In this document: positions 4,840 to 12,380 of the stretch, piece after piece
How the letters are laid out: each line of letters begins with the position of its first letter
How positions within the stretch are numbered: the first letter of the stretch is position 1
Source of the DNA: an uncultured Coriobacteriales bacterium
GTDB lineage: Bacteria > Actinomycetota > Coriobacteriia > Coriobacteriales > Atopobiaceae
Reading direction: 5' to 3'
NCBI GenBank assembly: GCA_946530775.1
Contig: CAMNAH010000008.1
Coordinates: 1 to 14,738 of the forward strand
Length of the DNA stretch: 14,738 bases
Made by a program: the position numbers and the translations under genes
Notes under the pieces: model-generated
What the model saw: only the letters and a program-made list of their open reading frames with translations
Databases searched by the model: none
Told to the model about the DNA's origin: nothing

Positions 4840-6486
4840 CTACGCCTCAAAGACGATGCGTCCGCCCACGATGGTCATGAGCACCTCGGTCGAGAGGATC
4901 TGCTCGGGGTCGACGGGCTTCTCGGGCGAACCCACGATATCGTGCGAGAGCACGCAGATATCGGCGAGCTTGCCCACCTCGAGCGTGCCGAGCTCGTGCT
5001 CGCGTCCGCAGGCGTAGGCGGAACCGTACGTATAGGCGCGCACCGCATCGGCCGCCGAGATGCACTCGTGCACGAGCCAACCCTCAGCAGGCTCGCGCGT
5101 CACCGCATCGCGGCGCGTTACGGCGTCGTAGAGGACGTTCCGGCTGTTGATGTCGACCACGGGCGAGTCGGTGCCAAACGAGAAGGGCACGCCGAGGCGA
5201 ACGTAGCTTGCGAACGGCCACATGAGCTGGACGCGCTTCTCGCCCAGGTCGCGGTAGTACTGCGGGGGATCCTGCGTGAGGTGCGGCGGCTGCACGTTGG
5301 CGCACACGTCGAGGCCGGCGAGGCGCTCCACGTCGCCCGGTGCGAATCCCTCGAGGTGCTCGAGGCCGTTATGGCCATGCGCGAGCTTGCCGTTCACGCG
5401 CTCGGACTCCTCGAAGATATCCATCGCCTCGCGGATGGCGCGGTCGCCGATGGTGTGGATGCGCACCGAGAAGCCCTCGGCGTTGGCTCCGAGCACGATG
5501 CGGCGCATGAGCTCGGCGTCGGTGTTGGGGCGCCCGCAGTCGCCGGGGAAGTAGGGGTTCTCGTATTCGTCGAGCAGCCAGGCGGTGTGCGTGGACGAGA
5601 CGCCGTCGAAGAACTGCTTCAAGCCGCCCAGACGCACATACGCGTTGCCCTCAAGGCGGTCGCGCACCTCGCGAGCGCGCGTGAGGTCCTCGAGCGCGGT
5701 GGGGTAGAGGCTCATGCGCACCGTGAGCGATCCCTCGTCGTAGAGCCGCTCGTAGAGGCGGTCGCGCACCAGATCCTCGATGCCGGGTAGCGCCATGAGG
5801 GCCATGTCGCAGACGCTCGTGATGCCCTGCGCATTGAGCTCGCGGATGAAGGAGCGTGCGGCTTCAAGGTACTCGTCATCGGAGAGTCCCGCCATGGTGA
5901 CGGGCGTGAGCGCCATGGCAGCGGTTTCCTGGATAAGGCCCGTGAGCTCGCCGTTCTCATCCTTCGCATAGATGCCGCCAGCGGGAGGGATGCTGTCTTT
6001 GGTGAGGCCGAGCTTCTCGAGGCCTGCAGAGTTGACCCACAGGTTGTGGCAGTCGCCCGACTGCAGCACCACGGGGCGGTCGGGCCAGCGCGCATCGAGC
6101 ACATCCTTGGTGGGAAGCGAGATATCCTCCCAGGCGCCCTGGCGCCATCCGTAGCCGATCATGAACTCATCGCGCGGGCGGGCGTCCGCAACGGCTGCGA
6201 GCGAATCGGCGCACTCCTCGCGCGAGGCGCCCTCGCAGAACACCGCGAAGCGCGAGTGGCCGATGGCCGAGCTCGTGAAATGCAGGTGCGAGTCGTGGAA
6301 GCCCGGGCATACGAACGCATCGCCCAGGTCGAGCACACGGGTTTCGGGGCCTATGAGGGCCTCGATCTGCTCGAAGGAGCCCACGGCGCAGATCTTGTCG
6401 CCCGAGATGGCAACGGCACCCGGGGAACTGGCGTTGCTGGCGGAGGTGAACAGGCACGTGCTTTTGAGTACCAGATCTGCCGCCAT
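4840..6486 (-). CDS. YtcJ-like amidohydrolase (Amidohydro_3 family)
   Basis: Metal-dependent amidohydrolase of 548 residues, relatives of which hydrolyse cyclic amides or N-acyl compounds; the substrate is unknown. A small beta-sandwich at the N-terminus (about 1-60) is completed by the C-terminal segment (about 495-548). The TIM barrel between them carries the metal-site motifs: GFHDSHLHF with H67/H69, a Lys in LGGLKQFFDG (K290, usual carbamylated position), H344 in VRIHTIGDRA, H378 in GLEHLEG and D440 in GTDSPVV. There is no signal peptide, so it is cytosolic. Its ATG follows a perfect AGGAGG (6492-6497) that overlaps the stop codon of the STAS-kinase gene, so it is translated as the last gene of the five-gene operon. 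Its role there is not obvious. It may process a small molecule linked to the adjacent kinase. Confidence 0.88.
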   Translation of the reverse strand: MAADLVLKSTCLFTSASNASSPGAVAISGDKICAVGSFEQIEALIGPETRVLDLGDAFVCPGFHDSHLHFTSSAIGHSRFAVFCEGASREECADSLAAVADARPRDEFMIGYGWRQGAWEDISLPTKDVLDARWPDRPVVLQSGDCHNLWVNSAGLEKLGLTKDSIPPAGGIYAKDENGELTGLIQETAAMALTPVTMAGLSDDEYLEAARSFIRELNAQGITSVCDMALMALPGIEDLVRDRLYERLYDEGSLTVRMSLYPTALEDLTRAREVRDRLEGNAYVRLGGLKQFFDGVSSTHTAWLLDEYENPYFPGDCGRPNTDAELMRRIVLGANAEGFSVRIHTIGDRAIREAMDIFEESERVNGKLAHGHNGLEHLEGFAPGDVERLAGLDVCANVQPPHLTQDPPQYYRDLGEKRVQLMWPFASYVRLGVPFSFGTDSPVVDINSRNVLYDAVTRRDAVTREPAEGWLVHECISAADAVRAYTYGSAYACGREHELGTLEVGKLADICVLSHDIVGSPEKPVDPEQILSTEVLMTIVGGRIVFEA

Positions 6487-6495
6487 GCGAGCCTC

Positions 6496-7677
6496 CTAGA
6501 AGACGAGGGTATCCACCGTATCGAGGAGCGAGACGAGACGCTCGGTGAACCTCTCCACCTCCGCCGTGCCCTCGGCGGTCTCGAGCGCGCCGCGCCTGAT
6601 GTTGCGGCGGATGAGGCGCGTGAGGCCCACCACCTGCGCCTTCTGCTCGACCTCGTGGAAGCGCGCGGCGTCATCGGTGCCGAGGTAGATGGCGAGCATC
6701 TTGTTCCACAGCGCGGTGCTCGTCTCGAAATCGATGCCGAGATAGTCCTCGACGATCTTGGGGTCGTAGAGCGCGAAGCCCTGATAGGCGTTGTAGATGC
6801 TTCCCAGCTCGAAGATGGGGTTGCCGCAGCAGAGCGTGTCCATGTCGATAAGCAGGCACTCGTCGTTCTGGAGCATGATGTTCTTGATGTGGAAGTCGCC
6901 GTGGAGCATGTGGCGATCCTCGGGAACCCCCTCGAACAGGTCCATGAGCCTGCGATGCTTCTCGGCGGGCAGGTAGTCGGCGAGGAATGCCGCCCAGCCC
7001 AGGGCCACGGCGCGCATATCGGGAAGCAGGCCGTCCTTGACCTCGGTGCCGTGGATCTGCAGCAGCAGGTCGGCCGAGAGCTCTGCGATCTCATCGACGG
7101 TCTTGTCGCCGTCGGAGAGCAGCTGCGCGAAGCTCTTGGCATCGAGCAGCTCGTACACCGCGCCATAGCCCTCGCCCACGCGCACCACGTCGTAGGGGAT
7201 GGCGGTGGGGATGCCCATCACGAACGCCGTGCGGGCGAGCTCGCGCTCGTGCTGGATGTCGGCGAGCGCCTCGGGGTTGTTGTAGGTCTTCACGATGGTG
7301 TCGGGGTTGACGCGGTAGACCTTGCCGTTCGCACCTGTGCCGATGACCTCGCAGCCCTCGACCGAGAACACGCGGTAGGCCTTATGCACCTCAACCATCT
7401 CGGTGAAGCCGGTCATATCGAGGATCTCGTACACGTCGGTCGAGACGTTCACGATCGAGAGGCCGGGGAACTCCTTGCGCAGGCGCAGGATGATGCGCAG
7501 GCCTGCCGACGAGATGTATTTGAGGTTCTCGGCATCGATCATCACGTTCGCGCACTCGATGTCCTCGCGTGCAGCGGCGAGCGCGCGCTCGGCCTCGGCG
7601 GCGTTCGACGAGTCGATGCTGCCGAACAGGGCGACATGCAGCACGTTTCCTTCGAGCGTGGCGTTTACGATGGCCAT
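6496..7677 (-). CDS. STAS domain fused to an aminoglycoside-phosphotransferase-like kinase
   Basis: Two-domain cytosolic protein of 393 residues. Residues 1-100 form a STAS (anti-sigma antagonist) domain with NLKYISSAGLRIIL; S57 aligns with the Ser phosphorylated by SpoIIAB/RsbW in SpoIIAA/RsbV. Residues 105-393 are a protein-kinase-fold phosphotransferase of the APH type. It has the glycine-rich loop VIGTGANGKVYRV, K130 in IVKTY, catalytic loop HGDFHIKNIML (D261, N266) and metal-binding D278 in LLIDMDT. The kinase part recalls the TIGR02172 group of APH-like proteins (from memory). The ATG at 7677 is preferred to an in-frame TTG at 7695 because GGAGAGGG (7686-7693) sits 8 bases upstream of it. 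The gene starts 1 base after the HD gene stop. A switch in which STAS phosphorylation controls kinase activity is inferred. The substrate is unknown. Confidence 0.85.
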   Translation of the reverse strand: MAIVNATLEGNVLHVALFGSIDSSNAAEAERALAAAREDIECANVMIDAENLKYISSAGLRIILRLRKEFPGLSIVNVSTDVYEILDMTGFTEMVEVHKAYRVFSVEGCEVIGTGANGKVYRVNPDTIVKTYNNPEALADIQHERELARTAFVMGIPTAIPYDVVRVGEGYGAVYELLDAKSFAQLLSDGDKTVDEIAELSADLLLQIHGTEVKDGLLPDMRAVALGWAAFLADYLPAEKHRRLMDLFEGVPEDRHMLHGDFHIKNIMLQNDECLLIDMDTLCCGNPIFELGSIYNAYQGFALYDPKIVEDYLGIDFETSTALWNKMLAIYLGTDDAARFHEVEQKAQVVGLTRLIRRNIRRGALETAEGTAEVERFTERLVSLLDTVDTLVF

Positions 7678-7678
7678 C

Positions 7679-8245
7679 CTACTCACCCTCTCCAAAAATT
7701 TGATTGACGAGGAACGAGTATTCCTGCCAAGCGTCGGTATCTTTCAAATCGGACAGAAGATCGGCGATCCTGCGGTAGTACCACTCCTGCTGCACGGGGT
7801 CGCTTTGGTGGAAGTTGCGCCAGAGGCCGGAGCCCTCGCGCAGGTAGAGGCGGAAGAACGAGCGCATGTTGGAGAGCTTGTCGGCCAGCCAGATGCGCTT
7901 CACGTCGAGGTCGTCGGTGCTGGTGAGCTTCTGCAGCGACTCCTCCTTGCGCGAGCGCCAGGTGAGTTCGGGGGGAAGCGCGCGGTACTTGGTCTCGGTC
8001 TCGGAGGCGACGAGCTCGGCGACGCGCTCGCCGAAGCGCTCGCGGATATCCTCGGGCGTAGCGTCGGTGTCCTCGACCGTGTCATGGAGCACGGCGGCGG
8101 CGATGACCTCGGGGTCGTCCGTCATGGTCGAGATGATGACGGCGGCCTCGAGGGGATGCATGATGTAGGGTGTGTTGCTCCGTTTACGGACCATGCCGCT
8201 GTGCTTGTCCACGGCATATTTGATGGCATCGTCAAGCAGTTTCAA
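7679..8245 (-). CDS. Small HD-domain hydrolase of the RelA/SpoT (ppGpp hydrolase) type
   Basis: Single-domain protein of 188 residues resembling the N-terminal hydrolase half of Rel/SpoT and the small alarmone hydrolases (Mesh1-like). Motifs: KHSGMVRKRSNTPYIMHPLE (first metal His), AAAVLHDTVEDTDAT (HD metal pair and the ED pair that positions water) and IWLADKLSNMRS (last metal Asp). No synthetase, TGS or ACT domain follows. If active it would remove pyrophosphate from ppGpp, or act on a related nucleotide such as NADPH. The start is a TTG at 8243-8245. It is chosen because a perfect GGAGGA (8252-8257) lies 6 bases upstream and no in-frame ATG fits the motif start. It begins 38 bases after the phosphatase-kinase gene with no terminator between. 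The fold is secure; the substrate is inferred. Confidence 0.87.
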   Translation of the reverse strand: MKLLDDAIKYAVDKHSGMVRKRSNTPYIMHPLEAAVIISTMTDDPEVIAAAVLHDTVEDTDATPEDIRERFGERVAELVASETETKYRALPPELTWRSRKEESLQKLTSTDDLDVKRIWLADKLSNMRSFFRLYLREGSGLWRNFHQSDPVQQEWYYRRIADLLSDLKDTDAWQEYSFLVNQIFGEGE

Positions 8246-8283
8246 CGAGTGTCCTCCAAGTGCGTTGGAAAAAACGGGTGGGC

Positions 8284-10431
8284 TTAGAACGTCTTCTTGA
8301 TGCGCAGGATGTTGTGCCCATCTTTGTATTCGTAGCTGACGTCGTCCATCGTCTGTTTGACGAGGAACACGCCAAGGCCGCCGATCTTGCGCTCCTCAGC
8401 CGAGAGCGTGATATCGGGGTCCTCCTTCGCCAGCGGGTCGAAGGGCGTGCCGTTGTCGATGAAGGTGATGATGACCGAGAGGGGGTCATCCTCCACATCG
8501 ACCAGCACCGTCGCCGGACCGGTCTCGGGGCTGTAGGCGTAATGGGCGATGTTGCCGAAGAGCTCGTCGATGGCGATGTCGATCTGCGTCTGCGCCTTGA
8601 TCGGGCAGTCGAGCGCCTCGAGGTGCTCGTTGACGAAGTCGGTGACGACGGGGATGTTCTCGACCGTCGCCTCGATGGTCATCTCGGCCATATGCTTCTC
8701 CTCCGAACGATCGGTTTGCATACCACGATAATGCAAGCAGAGCAGAGTAATGTCATCGTACTGCGGAGCGTCGCCCACAAAGCGCCCAAGATCGATGAGC
8801 ACCTCGTCGGAAACGTCGTCGGACGTGCCATCCGGATAGGTGTTGAGCGCCTTGAGAAGGCGATCGGTGCCGTAGAGCTTTCTCGAGGCGTTCATCGCCT
8901 CGGTAACGCCATCGGTGTAGACGAAGACGCAGTCGCCGGGCTCGAGCTGGATCTTGTAATCGCGGTACACGGCATCTTCCGTGCCGCCGAGCACGAAGCC
9001 GTGGCGGTCTTTGAGCAGCGAGAAGCGCTTGCTGCTGTTGCGCACGGCAGGATATTCGTGCCCGGCGTTCGAGGCCACGATGGTTCCCGTGCGGGTGTCG
9101 AGGATGCCGAGCCATGCCGTGACGAACATGTCGATCGCGTTGTTGGCGCAGACCACCCTGTTGACGGCCGCGAGAACCTCGGCGGGCGTGCCGCCCTGGA
9201 GCGCATGGTCGCTGATGAGGATCTTGGTCATCATCATGTAGAGCGCCGCCGGGATGCCCTTGCCCGAGACATCCGCGATCACCATGGCGAGATGGTGCTC
9301 GTCGACCATGAAGAAGTCGTAGAAGTCGCCGCCGACCTCTTTCGCGGGGTTCATGCTGGCATAGATGTCGAACTCCGTGCGGTCGGGGAAGGGCGGGAAG
9401 GTGTTGGGGAGCATGCTCGCCTGGATGGACTGCGCAAGATGCAGCTCGGTGCCGATGCGCTGCTTCTCTGATGTGATGCGCTTGAGGTTGTCCTCGTATT
9501 CCACAAGGCCGTGCTCCATGTCGGCCATGACCAGCGAGAGGTTCTCGATCTCGTCGCCGGTGCGGATATCGAGCTTGGAGAAGTGCTCGCCCTCGGCCTC
9601 GCCAGCCTTGCGATCCTCGATGTAGGTCTCGGCGGCCTCGGCGATTCTGTTGATGGGATCGACCAGCGACTTCCTCATGTGGCGGGTGATGAGCGCCGCG
9701 AAGAGGTTGATGACGAGGAACATGACGAGGCTGAACTGCAGGGCATAGATCTTGAGGCCGTTGGCGATCGTTCTGATCGACACGTCGACGAGCAGGAACG
9801 CGACAGTCTCCCCGGCCTCGTTGCGGACGGGGTAGCCGCTCGTGCCCATCCATCCATACGCATCGCTGTGACCGATATAGGATGGGATGCCCTCGCCATT
9901 CCAGTCGAGGAATGCCGTGACCTCTTGGGGATCGACGGCCTCCCAATTGCCGATCTCGGAGCGATTGTTGTTATCGGAATCGGCGATGTAGACCACGGCA
10001 TTGGTCTCGCGATCGTACATGGCGAGATAGATGTAGTCGAAATCGTCGTTGCCCTCGAGCTTGTCGAGGATGGAGAGCGTGCGGTAGTAGGTGGTGCTGT
10101 TGTCGGCATTGAGGAAGCGCTCGCGGTATTCGAGCGTGCCCATCTGCTCGCGCTGCTCGGAGGTGAGCGAGCGGTACGTGGACATGGTGCTTTCGGAGAG
10201 GGAGGCGATGTCTGCCTCGTCGTCGAGGAGCAGCACCGCCGACGACGCGTAGTTGTAGGCGACGGCGAGCTCCTTGTTGAGAACAGCGTAGCCGTGGGCG
10301 ACGAAGCCCACGGCTATAGCAATTACCGCCAGGATGGCGGACATCGCTATGAGGGAACGCCATACTCGAGAGGCGAGCGAATAGTGCCGCCGCTCGAGAG
10401 CGCCCATCTCACGAACGCTCTTCTCTGGCAT
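8284..10431 (-). CDS. Membrane sensor with RsbU-type PP2C phosphatase and RsbW-type kinase domains
   Basis: 715-residue partner-switching regulator. In order: a transmembrane helix (about 27-47), an extracytoplasmic Cache-like sensor region (about 50-225, with YDRETNAVVYIAD), a second transmembrane helix (about 228-248), HAMP and coiled coil (about 250-340), a PP2C/SpoIIE phosphatase (about 355-568) and an RsbW-like GHKL kinase (about 583-715). PP2C metal residues lie in KEVGGDFYDFF (D369), MVIADVSGKG (D387), FVYTDGVTEA and QYDDITLL. The kinase has the N box IDELFGNIAHYAY, the IDNGTPF box and GGLGVFLVKQ. The phosphatase would dephosphorylate, and the kinase phosphorylate, STAS proteins. Related fusions exist in actinobacteria (M. 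tuberculosis Rv1364c, S. coelicolor OsaC) but with other sensors. The ATG at 10431 lies 9 bases after the STAS gene stop with no strong ribosome site, implying coupling. An internal start before the kinase domain is described separately. Confidence 0.93.
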   Translation of the reverse strand: MPEKSVREMGALERRHYSLASRVWRSLIAMSAILAVIAIAVGFVAHGYAVLNKELAVAYNYASSAVLLLDDEADIASLSESTMSTYRSLTSEQREQMGTLEYRERFLNADNSTTYYRTLSILDKLEGNDDFDYIYLAMYDRETNAVVYIADSDNNNRSEIGNWEAVDPQEVTAFLDWNGEGIPSYIGHSDAYGWMGTSGYPVRNEAGETVAFLLVDVSIRTIANGLKIYALQFSLVMFLVINLFAALITRHMRKSLVDPINRIAEAAETYIEDRKAGEAEGEHFSKLDIRTGDEIENLSLVMADMEHGLVEYEDNLKRITSEKQRIGTELHLAQSIQASMLPNTFPPFPDRTEFDIYASMNPAKEVGGDFYDFFMVDEHHLAMVIADVSGKGIPAALYMMMTKILISDHALQGGTPAEVLAAVNRVVCANNAIDMFVTAWLGILDTRTGTIVASNAGHEYPAVRNSSKRFSLLKDRHGFVLGGTEDAVYRDYKIQLEPGDCVFVYTDGVTEAMNASRKLYGTDRLLKALNTYPDGTSDDVSDEVLIDLGRFVGDAPQYDDITLLCLHYRGMQTDRSEEKHMAEMTIEATVENIPVVTDFVNEHLEALDCPIKAQTQIDIAIDELFGNIAHYAYSPETGPATVLVDVEDDPLSVIITFIDNGTPFDPLAKEDPDITLSAEERKIGGLGVFLVKQTMDDVSYEYKDGHNILRIKKTF
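8689..8704 (-). promoter_or_regulatory. Internal ribosome binding site and ATG for a free RsbW domain
   Basis: On the minus strand GGAGGAG (8704-8698) is followed by 6 bases and an in-frame ATG (8691-8689), at residue 581 of the fused protein. It falls exactly between the PP2C and RsbW-like domains. Initiation here would give a 135-residue kinase (8284-8691) starting MAEMTIEATV, the size of a normal RsbW. The ribosome site is stronger than the one of the full-length gene. Confidence 0.6.
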
Positions 10432-10440
10432 TGATGTTGC

Positions 10441-10737
10441 TTACTCGATGGTGAGGATCCCGTCGAAGCCGGTAACCTCGAAGATCTCCATGACGGTCTC
10501 GTTCACGTTGACGACCTTCATGGTGCCCTTGGCGGTCATGAGCTTGTGCAGGCCGAGGAAGACGCGCAGGCCCGCGGACGAGATGTACTCGAGCTCGGCG
10601 CAGTCGAGCACGAGGTCGGTGATGCCGTCGAGCTGATCGGAAAGCTCCTGCTCGACCTGCGGCGCGGTGGTGGTGTCGAGCCGGCCGACGATGGCAACGT
10701 TGAGGGTGGTGCCGTCCTGGGTGGTGTTGATGTTCAC
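10441..10737 (-). CDS. STAS-domain anti-sigma factor antagonist (RsbV/SpoIIAA type)
   Basis: Single STAS domain of 98 residues, first gene of the operon. The core segment LEYISSAGLRVFLGL contains the Ser pair of the family; the second Ser aligns with the Ser phosphorylated by RsbW/SpoIIAB. Dephosphorylated STAS proteins bind the anti-sigma kinase and free its target. The kinase and phosphatase for this protein are presumably the domains of the next gene, 9 bases downstream. The start is a GTG. The one at 10737 is preferred because AAGGAG (10743-10748) lies 5 bases upstream; a second in-frame GTG at 10743 is possible and adds two residues. It resembles the STAS part of the downstream STAS-kinase fusion (both have YISSAGLR and a VTGF/MTGF segment), suggesting duplication. 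Assignment is firm; the final target is unknown. Confidence 0.92.
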   Translation of the reverse strand: MNINTTQDGTTLNVAIVGRLDTTTAPQVEQELSDQLDGITDLVLDCAELEYISSAGLRVFLGLHKLMTAKGTMKVVNVNETVMEIFEVTGFDGILTIE

Positions 10738-10775
10738 AAGCACTCCTTGCCTTAGGGTGAAACGCTGAGATTAGT

Positions 10776-10801
10776 GTACCCCGATGCGCAGCGCCCCAAC
10801 C
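10776..10801 (-). promoter_or_regulatory. Candidate SigB/SigF-type promoter of the partner-switching operon
   Basis: The minus strand reads GGTT (10801-10798), 16 bases, then GGGTAC (10781-10776). This fits the GNNT-N14-16-GGGTAC/T pattern reported for Streptomyces SigB and resembles the mycobacterial SigF pattern. It lies 38 bases before the STAS start. An overlapping TACACT (10778-10773) could alternatively be a housekeeping -10. If the first reading is right, the operon is under a stress sigma factor of the kind such modules control. Inference from motif only. Confidence 0.4.
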
Positions 10802-10867: not shown

Positions 10868-10919
10868 TATGCGAGAATGGGTGGTACGGGATGCAATCCG
10901 TTACGAAGGGCGGTGCGTT

Positions 10920-12380
10920 ATGGCGATCACCCACATCACCCTGCTCCATTCCAACGATATGCACGGCGCGTTCCTCCCCACCGACGTGAACGGCGTTGCA
11001 ACAGGGGGTATCTCGCTTTTGTCGGGATATGTGCGCGGCGAGCGCAAGGGCAATCCCAACACCGCCTATGTGATCGCGGGCGACATGTTCCGTGGGTCGG
11101 TCATCGACTCCGAGTTTCTGGGCCTCTCCACCATCGACCTGGTGAACATCCTGAGGCCCGATGTCGCCACGATCGGCAATCACGAGGTCGATTACGGCCT
11201 TGCGCACCTGCTGTTCCTCGAGAAGTGCGCGCGGTTCCCCATCATCAACGCCGACCTCTTCGTCACGCTCAACAACGCCCGTCTCTTCCAGCCCTTCATC
11301 GATCTCAAGGTGGGAGGGCTCAAGATCCTCTGCATCGGCATCCTCACCAACGAGGTGCTCTCCTCGACCAAGACCGAGGCGGTCATTGGCTCCTTCGTCG
11401 ACATCAAGGAAGCCGCCCGCGAGATCGGCATCATCTGCGACAACTACCGCACCACCAGCACCGACCTCACCGTGCTTATCACCCACATCGGTATCGAAAA
11501 GGACCGCGAGCTCGCCGCCTTGCTCAACCCCGACTGGGGCGTCAACTTCATCATCGGCGGTCACTCGCATACCTTCATGGACGAGCCCGAGATCGTGAAT
11601 GGCGTGCCCATCGTGCAGGCGGGATATGGCACGGGGCAAATCGGGCGGCTCGAGATCGACTACGACACCTCGACCAGGGAGTTGCTCGACTACGACTGGG
11701 AATGCGTGCCCATTAACGAGAATACCGCCGAGCCCGACCCCATCATGGAGAAGACACTCGAGACCTACCGCGACACCACCGACAGGAAATACCACCGCGT
11801 GGTGACCCATCTTGCGCGCACGCTCACTCATCCCGCCCGTGAGCAGGAGACCGAGCTCGGCAACCTCTATGCCGACATTCTGGTCGATGGCAGCAGCTAC
11901 GAGATCATGCTCATGGGGTCGGGGTCCATCCGCAAGGAAGAGCTCGGGCCCATCGTGGAATACCAGGACATGATCGAGAATACGCCCTTCGACGGGCCCA
12001 TCTATATGATCAAGGTGACGGGAGCGCAGTTCAGGCGCATGGTGAGCTATGTCTTCCGCGACGGGTGGGATAGGGGCGAGACCGAGTTTTACCAGGTTTC
12101 AACCGGTGTGCGCATCGTGTGGCGCAAATCAACCAACACGCTCGAGGCGCTCGAGTTCAAGGGCGAGCCCGTGACGGACGATCAGGAACTCACGTTGGGG
12201 CTGCAGGATTACCACTTCAATAACTTCGAGAAGTTCTTCGGGGTGCCCTTCGACGAGGTGACGGCCAACATGAGACCGCGCATGGTCATCACGCAGCAGA
12301 ACAACGTCATCGAGGAATACCTCTCGGTGAATCCGGGCCTCGATGCCCGCGTCGAGGGCCGCATCACCGTGCTCGACTAG
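10920..12380 (+). CDS. 5'-nucleotidase/UDP-sugar diphosphatase-type metallophosphatase
   Basis: Two-domain metallophosphoesterase of the UshA/YunD class (486 residues from this start), likely to remove phosphate from nucleotides. The N-terminal calcineurin-like domain shows HITLLHSNDMHGAF (first metal Asp/His), AGDMFRGSV, TIGNHEVDYG, LITHIGIEKD and IIGGHSHTF. The C-terminal 5'-nucleotidase domain (about 300-486) has ETELGNLYADILVDG and MLMGSGSIRKEEL. No signal peptide is visible, so a cytosolic form is likely, unlike UshA. An upstream in-frame ATG at 10869 has a stronger ribosome site (GGAGGA), adding 17 residues. I prefer 10920 because those 17 codons have about half the third-position GC of the gene and the family starts just before the first beta strand; AAGGG (10906-10910) is 9 bases upstream. 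It is divergent from the STAS operon. Confidence 0.87.
   Translation: MAITHITLLHSNDMHGAFLPTDVNGVATGGISLLSGYVRGERKGNPNTAYVIAGDMFRGSVIDSEFLGLSTIDLVNILRPDVATIGNHEVDYGLAHLLFLEKCARFPIINADLFVTLNNARLFQPFIDLKVGGLKILCIGILTNEVLSSTKTEAVIGSFVDIKEAAREIGIICDNYRTTSTDLTVLITHIGIEKDRELAALLNPDWGVNFIIGGHSHTFMDEPEIVNGVPIVQAGYGTGQIGRLEIDYDTSTRELLDYDWECVPINENTAEPDPIMEKTLETYRDTTDRKYHRVVTHLARTLTHPAREQETELGNLYADILVDGSSYEIMLMGSGSIRKEELGPIVEYQDMIENTPFDGPIYMIKVTGAQFRRMVSYVFRDGWDRGETEFYQVSTGVRIVWRKSTNTLEALEFKGEPVTDDQELTLGLQDYHFNNFEKFFGVPFDEVTANMRPRMVITQQNNVIEEYLSVNPGLDARVEGRITVLD

Follow-up and report, generated by a model that had tools for sequence, protein, structure and literature searches.

A probable partner-switching operon without a sigma factor in an Atopobiaceae bacterium, with a STAS domain on a putative kinase effector

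Introduction

Partner switches are known best as regulators of sigma factors, and few enzyme outputs have been described. In the RsbV/RsbW/RsbU-RsbP and SpoIIAA/SpoIIAB/SpoIIE systems of Bacillus, a STAS protein with a phosphoacceptor serine is combined with an RsbW-type kinase and a PP2C phosphatase, the same elements as in the locus presented here. Enzymes are already known as targets of partner switches, SiaD in the case of SiaABC and MtG in that of MtT, both treated in a part of PMC7647112; according to that part, SiaABCD of Pseudomonas aeruginosa brings together in one operon the PP2C phosphatase SiaA, the kinase SiaB and the anti-sigma-antagonist-like SiaC, and its output is an enzyme, the diguanylate cyclase SiaD. 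STAS-only proteins with unknown targets are described in a section of PMC8256260, and PMC13232838 reports an enzyme with a second role as antagonist of an anti-sigma factor, no STAS domain figuring in the cited part of that paper. We analysed a stretch of 14,738 nucleotides from an uncultured Coriobacteriales bacterium of the Atopobiaceae (contig CAMNAH010000008.1, hereafter the window), in which an RsbV-like STAS protein, a membrane sensor-PP2C-RsbW protein, an HD-domain hydrolase and a protein joining a STAS to an APH kinase domain (STAS-APH) are encoded in one operon without a sigma factor. Our favoured reading, of moderate confidence, is that of a partner switch with an enzyme as effector in place of a sigma factor.

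Results and Discussion

Organisation of the operon

Five open reading frames (ORFs) lie tightly packed on the minus strand, with gaps of 9, 38, 1 and 9 bases, and the Pfam matches of the five products were all above the gathering score. An earlier note, made from the sequence alone, had described this cluster of five genes, with the second STAS domain sitting on a small-molecule-type kinase and keeping its phosphorylatable serine; the ORFs, the Pfam domains and the alignments given below bear out these three points.

The stand-alone, RsbV-like STAS protein (10441-10737, on the minus strand like all features of the operon) has 98 amino acids (aa) and a GTG start with AAGGAG upstream, an alternative GTG start being found at 10743. 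Its Pfam match was STAS (E 1.4e-17), TIGR00377 was above its cut-off, and 4hyl and RsbV (6m36_B) were also matched. The expected phosphoacceptor Ser54 (YISSAG, codon at 10576-10578) aligns with the same position as Ser57 of STAS-APH (codon at 7507-7509), with which, in turn, the phosphoserine position of SpoIIAA (S in 1th8, A in 1tid) is aligned. By alignment, both STAS domains thus carry the phosphoacceptor serine that a partner switch uses.

The next gene (8284-10431) encodes a membrane protein of 715 aa with a SpoIIE/PP2C (E 4.3e-50) and a HATPase_c_2 domain (E 1.4e-19). Two hydrophobic stretches, putative membrane helices as judged from hydropathy and from the secondary structure of an AlphaFold2 model (residues ~21-52 and 225-252, within 9676-10371), enclose about 170 residues that are presumed to lie outside. 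No Pfam family was matched by this inter-helix part, not even with the threshold relaxed to E<=1, and the fold search, whose lists were filled by the phosphatase domain, named no fold for it. The PP2C domain (residues 377-568, 8728-9303) has the metal-binding aspartates expected of such a phosphatase, Asp369, Asp387, Asp507, Asp559 and Asp560 being invariant in 26 sequences, with Asp369 just before the Pfam match. The RsbW-type kinase domain (residues 586-713, 8293-8676) likewise has the ATP-site residues of the RsbW/SpoIIAB type, and Glu623, Asn627, Asp659, Gly661, Gly685 and Gly687 were invariant in the 26 sequences. Module variants with a PP2C-RsbW protein of about 945 aa were seen at L131:1171-4005 and L132:7874-10711, the former bearing a 5TM-5TMR_LYT membrane part and a HAMP domain; by their predicted domains, these appear to be variants in which the sensor is swapped and the output retained.

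The HD_4 protein (7679-8245, 188 aa, TTG start; HD_4, E 3.1e-22), which resembles small alarmone hydrolases, is followed by STAS-APH (6496-7677, 393 aa), with STAS at residues 8-99 (E 1.4e-11) and APH at 110-307 (E 7.2e-18). A promoter scan gave one weak promoter-like site versus 1.1 expected and was uninformative. A reading of the locus as a defence system was rejected, since PADLOC, at E<=0.001, recognised neither any of the five window proteins nor the HD-APH protein of locus L088 described below.

The STAS-APH family

One search returned 7866 relatives of STAS-APH at E<=1e-10 among 8000 scored candidates. The best 120 of these 7866 all had STAS and APH Pfam domains and a length of 390-417 aa; 119 of them shared 57-65% identity with the query across 96-100% of its length, and one was a 99% near-copy. 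For the comparison of residues and neighbourhoods we used 80 loci (L001-L080), which are the best hits of a search with the patterns PTAIPYDV and LLIDMDTL and not a random sample. In the alignment of 81 sequences, made of these 80 and the window protein, Ser57, Lys130, Glu144, His259-Gly260-Asp261, Asn266, Asp278 and Asp280 were invariant; the conservation of Asp278 and Asp280 is partly selected for, because LLIDMDTL was used as a search pattern, which does not apply to the other residues. Asp261 (codon at 6895-6897) belongs to the HGDxHxKN catalytic loop. With a Gly-rich loop, the lysine, HGDxxxxN and the metal aspartate, the protein falls in the APH/choline-kinase superfamily; its best NCBIfam match, TIGR02172, reached 103.4 bits, which is below the cut-off of 228.2 and places it outside that family.

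In a sampling by taxon, matches at E<=1e-40, which include HD-APH and distant forms, were obtained in 6 of 197 genomes of the class of genome G001, in 11 of 115 of the family of G014 and in 19 of 291 of the class of G002. The distribution of STAS-APH is patchy across the sampled taxa. No description of a STAS-APH protein was found in the open-access literature, searched by title and start of the abstract and without preprints.

Conservation of the gene order

To label the ORFs, we derived profiles for STAS, APH, PP2C, RsbW and HD from the 80 loci. The neighbourhood comprised five genes upstream and three downstream on the same strand, fusions included, and a locus was taken as assessable if three or more genes were present upstream, which left 67. 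RsbW was nearby or fused in 59 of the 67, a count independent of the transporter-linked RsbW reported below, PP2C and stand-alone STAS were nearby in 48 each, HD in 20, and at least one partner was present in 64. Over all 80 loci, 425 near and 335 distant genes were compared: RsbW was found in 61 of the former (50 if transporter-linked ones are set aside) and in none of the latter.

Wider stretches were taken for 30 places from the sampling by taxon (L114-L143). Among the relatives with an APH score of ~380 bits or more, RsbW was within six genes or fused in 17 of 18; the 18th, L140, without a visible RsbW, lies at a contig end, its stretch beginning 381 bases before HD. Three further matches of this strength (contig C22 of G014, G001 and G002) are L026, L001 and L002 of the 80 loci, all with RsbW. 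Five loci with an HD-APH fusion were left out of this count and of that for lower-scoring relatives given below. The order STAS / PP2C-RsbW / (HD) / STAS-APH recurs across Bacillota and Coriobacteriia, and the first four genes are a recurrent module; the earlier note had staked its proposal on such conservation, which turned out to be wide.

The absence of a sigma factor from the operon, also part of that proposal, was confirmed. Eight other genes of the window, a set that excludes the truncated cysS-like gene at 3-974, were scanned with Pfam or NCBIfam, and no sigma family was matched. A targeted profile, built from three SigB-like proteins and liable to miss distant sigma types, found none in the module operon of 110 loci (L001-L080 and L114-L143); only 2 of 6467 ORFs matched, both on the opposite strand and kilobases from STAS-APH. 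A Pfam census of 114 of the 226 non-module neighbours, on the same strand and of middle length, gave 95 families, with no sigma family among the 25 listed. By these scans, no cognate sigma factor of the kind that a SigB/SigF-type switch has next to RsbV/RsbW was found in the window or in the module operons of the 110 loci.

Natural fusions

In 18 of the 80 loci, STAS-APH and RsbW form a single chain, and the same fusion recurred in the class of G002, where it was found in 5 of the 9 loci sampled at ~380 bits or more. In the fusion of L039, Pfam detected STAS, APH and HATPase_c_2; for that of L059, the AlphaFold2 model (pLDDT 90.8, pTM 0.68) placed STAS, APH and RsbW folds in succession. A PP2C gene was nearby in 10 of the 18 fusion loci, and the RsbW kinase domain seems to shift between sensor and effector, because in 9 of these 10 the PP2C protein has no RsbW domain. 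Moreover, five further proteins (L088, L089 and L090 in the class of G001, L108 and L109 in the class of G002) are single-chain HD-APH fusions, in which HD occupies the usual position of STAS, as confirmed by Pfam for L088. No PP2C or RsbW was among the genes listed in the wider stretches around HD-APH; in L115 a STAS gene lies three genes from HD-APH, on the opposite strand.

In a tree of 102 APH domains the HD-APH proteins form one side of a branch, the long branches there being unsure. On the same tree the STAS-APH-RsbW fusion needs 4 changes; multiple origins are not established, because the well-supported branches force only 1. An HD neighbour needs 18 changes, so that HD is gained or lost often.

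Proposed mechanism and alternatives

From the gene content, the conserved order, the fusions, the conserved residues, the folds and the sigma-free operon, all seen directly, we infer the phosphorylation steps, the direction of control, the catalysis and the substrate as follows. The membrane protein would sense an external signal and shift the balance of its PP2C phosphatase versus its RsbW serine kinase, and this balance would set the phosphorylation of Ser54 on the free STAS and of Ser57 on STAS-APH. By analogy with RsbV/RsbW, unphosphorylated STAS parts would compete for RsbW and phosphorylated ones would release it, and the signal would thus determine if the APH kinase is bound to RsbW or released. 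Together with the adjacent HD phosphohydrolase, this kinase would then alter a small phosphorylated metabolite, possibly a nucleotide. An enzymatic output, as raised by the earlier note, is suggested by the STAS-APH-RsbW and HD-APH fusions and by carriers of STAS-APH in which no sigma factor of the SigB/F/G type was found.

Several observations weigh against this reading. The 80 loci are best pattern hits and not a random sample, and the conservation of LIDMDT is partly built in. HD was not found near STAS-APH in 56 of the 80 loci, some of these cut short; RsbW was absent in 8 of the 67 assessable loci (L019, L037, L041, L051, L056, L068, L071, L072), and L019, L037 and L041 had no partner at all. 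Lower-scoring STAS-APH proteins were mostly without the module, with RsbW near in one of seven loci (L137); further places of this kind were seen as short loci only (L086, L087, L103, L105, L106, L110, L112, L113; L111 lies inside L138), among which L103 had a transporter-linked RsbW and L113 a PP2C. As for sigma factors, a census by TIGR02980 in 28 carrier genomes chosen from the 80 loci gave a match over the cut-off in 11 and above 200 bits in 15, and HATPase_c_2 matched 2 to 9 times per genome in 14 genomes tested, weak matches included. In the Coriobacteriia genomes G001, G006 and G016, a SigB-like sigma gene (L081:315-1226, L082:3393-4268, L083:3217-4002) lies beside its own small RsbW-like gene, away from the module stretch, and also beside a gene that we take from its sequence to be rarA-like. 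Cross-talk of the module to a distant sigma factor is possible because this cluster has no STAS, none being found in the stretches read around the three sigma genes. Furthermore, most carriers are draft metagenome assemblies, and an incomplete assembly could account for a missing sigma factor; in G004 and G005, for instance, not one full-length match to TIGR02980 was seen. The lack of SigF/G, too, may simply mark a non-sporulating lineage.

Among the alternatives, the likeliest is a version of the proposed mechanism that names a substrate for the enzymatic output: HD and APH would be an alarmone arm, with HD as a RelH-type (p)ppGpp/(p)ppApp hydrolase, APH acting on the same pool and the signal tuning the stringent response. 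By sequence, the nearest relatives of the HD protein are Lmo0812 (4yf1, E 8.3e-27) and 7qoe, and a part of PMC10434055 assigns Lmo0812 to MixSpo/RelH, a family of small alarmone hydrolases. Like these, the HD protein combines the HD_4 family with HD..ED and D..N motifs, and the two motifs looked at, HD..ED and DKL.N, were present in all 22 relatives of more than 150 aa. Nevertheless, a fold gives no substrate, and Mesh1 is reported, in a passage of PMC9765508, to hydrolyse NADPH. In addition, HD seems to alternate with a PHP-domain protein, which was within three genes in 10 of the 56 loci without HD versus 0 of the 24 with HD (Fisher p 0.028, which ignores kinship), directly after STAS-APH in 9 of the 10. 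Proteins of this kind, of about 290 aa and directly after STAS-APH(-RsbW), were seen in L028, L039:11620-12492, L047, L050, L053, L055, L068, L074, L077 and L135. Both being hydrolase folds, HD and PHP suggest one exchangeable phosphoesterase slot. We regard the alarmone arm as possible, if doubtful.

The main rival, which we judge rather unlikely, takes STAS-APH as an input: its non-STAS part would sense a metabolite or ATP, its STAS would titrate RsbW, and the output would be a distant SigB-like sigma factor. RsbR-type multi-domain STAS proteins of stressosomes use their other domain as sensor in this way, and the SigB-like sigma factors with an RsbW-like neighbour and no STAS in G001, G006 and G016 would offer a target, as would those of the SigB/F/G type over the cut-off in G302, G240, G301, G335 and the 11 carriers counted above. 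On the other hand, in the family of G014 such a sigma factor was over the cut-off in 0 of 11 STAS-APH carriers versus 28 of 115 genomes, the latter possibly spore formers, and in 13 of the 28 census carriers no TIGR02980 match exceeded 150 bits (G014 is in both sets). Moreover, the catalytic residues of APH are invariant in 81 of 81 sequences and in other genomes an HD phosphohydrolase and the kinase are joined in one chain, which points to catalysis.

That APH modifies antibiotics or xenobiotics, as a kinase that envelope stress would switch on, appears improbable. Many aminoglycoside phosphotransferases are among its fold neighbours and a sequence-profile search at E<=0.01 retrieved a single APH-type chain, hygromycin kinase, but choline, methylthioribose and aminopropanol kinases stand in the same fold list with similar scores, and the 57-65% identity of 119 of the best 120 relatives, together with the HD partner, would better fit a housekeeping or signalling substrate. 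Finally, chance neighbours, co-transcribed without a common pathway, would agree with the behaviour of the amidohydrolase and with flanking genes that vary between genomes, but the confinement of RsbW to near genes and the single-chain fusions in many genomes make this very improbable.

Amidohydrolase and flanking genes

The fifth gene of the operon (4840-6486) encodes an amidohydrolase (Amidohydro_3, E 9.5e-83), which the earlier note had counted as part of the system. This was not supported: among the 80 loci, an amidohydrolase directly follows STAS-APH only in L004, the sequence of six others (L001, L023, L038, L045, L065, L071) stopping immediately after STAS-APH, and no match at E<=1e-30 was present in G001, the genome of the best locus L001. 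L004 shares rlmB, NYN, Rrf2, MutY-like, rubrerythrin and amidohydrolase genes with the window at 50-91% identity, and weaker amidohydrolase relatives lie several genes upstream in L058, L059 and L061. The amidohydrolase is probably a lineage-specific passenger, outside the mechanism.

A 5'-nucleotidase/metallophosphoesterase gene without obvious role in the module lies divergently at 10869-12380 of the window; in L001 its place before STAS is taken by a glmM-like gene (L001:3-788), 99% identical to that of the window over 262 residues. The STAS-APH, HD, PP2C and STAS of L001 are 64-75% identical to those of the window and a MutY-like protein of the same genome 81%; the contrast with the glmM-like gene may be due to recombination or to a mixed assembly. 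In view of the value for MutY, a special diversification of the module was considered and dropped.

Transporters of the MATE type with a C-terminal RsbW-like HATPase_c_2 domain were seen at L040:4556-6292 and L103:2625-4031 (both checked by Pfam), and similar ORFs of ~580-600 aa with an RsbW-like stretch in L005, L014, L016, L028, L036, L045, L060, L062 and L063, often near stand-alone STAS or STAS-APH; these are perhaps transporters gated by a partner switch. In L024:2436-3902 and L026:5560-6972, a protein of 470-488 aa with a PTS_IIB-like stretch, in L026 also weakly ROK-like, directly precedes the STAS gene.

Comparison with known systems

A more far-reaching proposal, speculative and put forward more tentatively than the input role weighed above, would be that STAS-APH and HD form a reversible writer/eraser pair, commanded by the membrane signal, for a phosphorylated signalling metabolite as yet undescribed, which APH would make or remove and HD reverse or divert; PP2C/RsbW would then be a general post-translational valve in Bacillota and Coriobacteriia, and HD-APH a stripped-down, unswitched form. 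An enzymatic output, if true, would open an uncharacterised signalling family with a STAS domain on a kinase, and the single-chain STAS-APH-RsbW and HD-APH proteins would be an easy entry for structure and substrate work.

Compared with RelH and the small alarmone hydrolases, with which it has the HD_4 family and both motifs in common, the putative HD hydrolase differs in that it adjoins, or in relatives is fused to, an APH kinase. Rv1364c of Mycobacterium tuberculosis (3ke6) resembles the window protein in carrying PP2C (RsbU) and RsbW on one chain. With respect to RsbV/RsbW and SpoIIAA/SpoIIAB of Bacillus, the window operon has no sigma factor and its second STAS domain is on a kinase. Rv1364c differs in being linked to sigma F and in carrying its own STAS. 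The Moorella stressosome pair MtT/MtG is alike in that, as part of PMC7647112 reports, partner switching acts on an enzyme, a diguanylate cyclase; it relies on an RsbT-like kinase and a stressosome scaffold and not on RsbW with STAS-APH. SiaA was the best fold match of the window PP2C. In SiaABCD, however, SiaC stands alone as a protein and receives its phosphate on Thr68, as stated in the same part of that paper, whereas the second STAS domain of the window is fused to the putative effector kinase, PP2C and RsbW are on one protein, and the enzymes are an APH kinase and an HD hydrolase. The best reading of the module, as far as its sequences indicate, is a partner switch with enzymatic output, similar to SiaABCD but acting through an effector of which we found no description.

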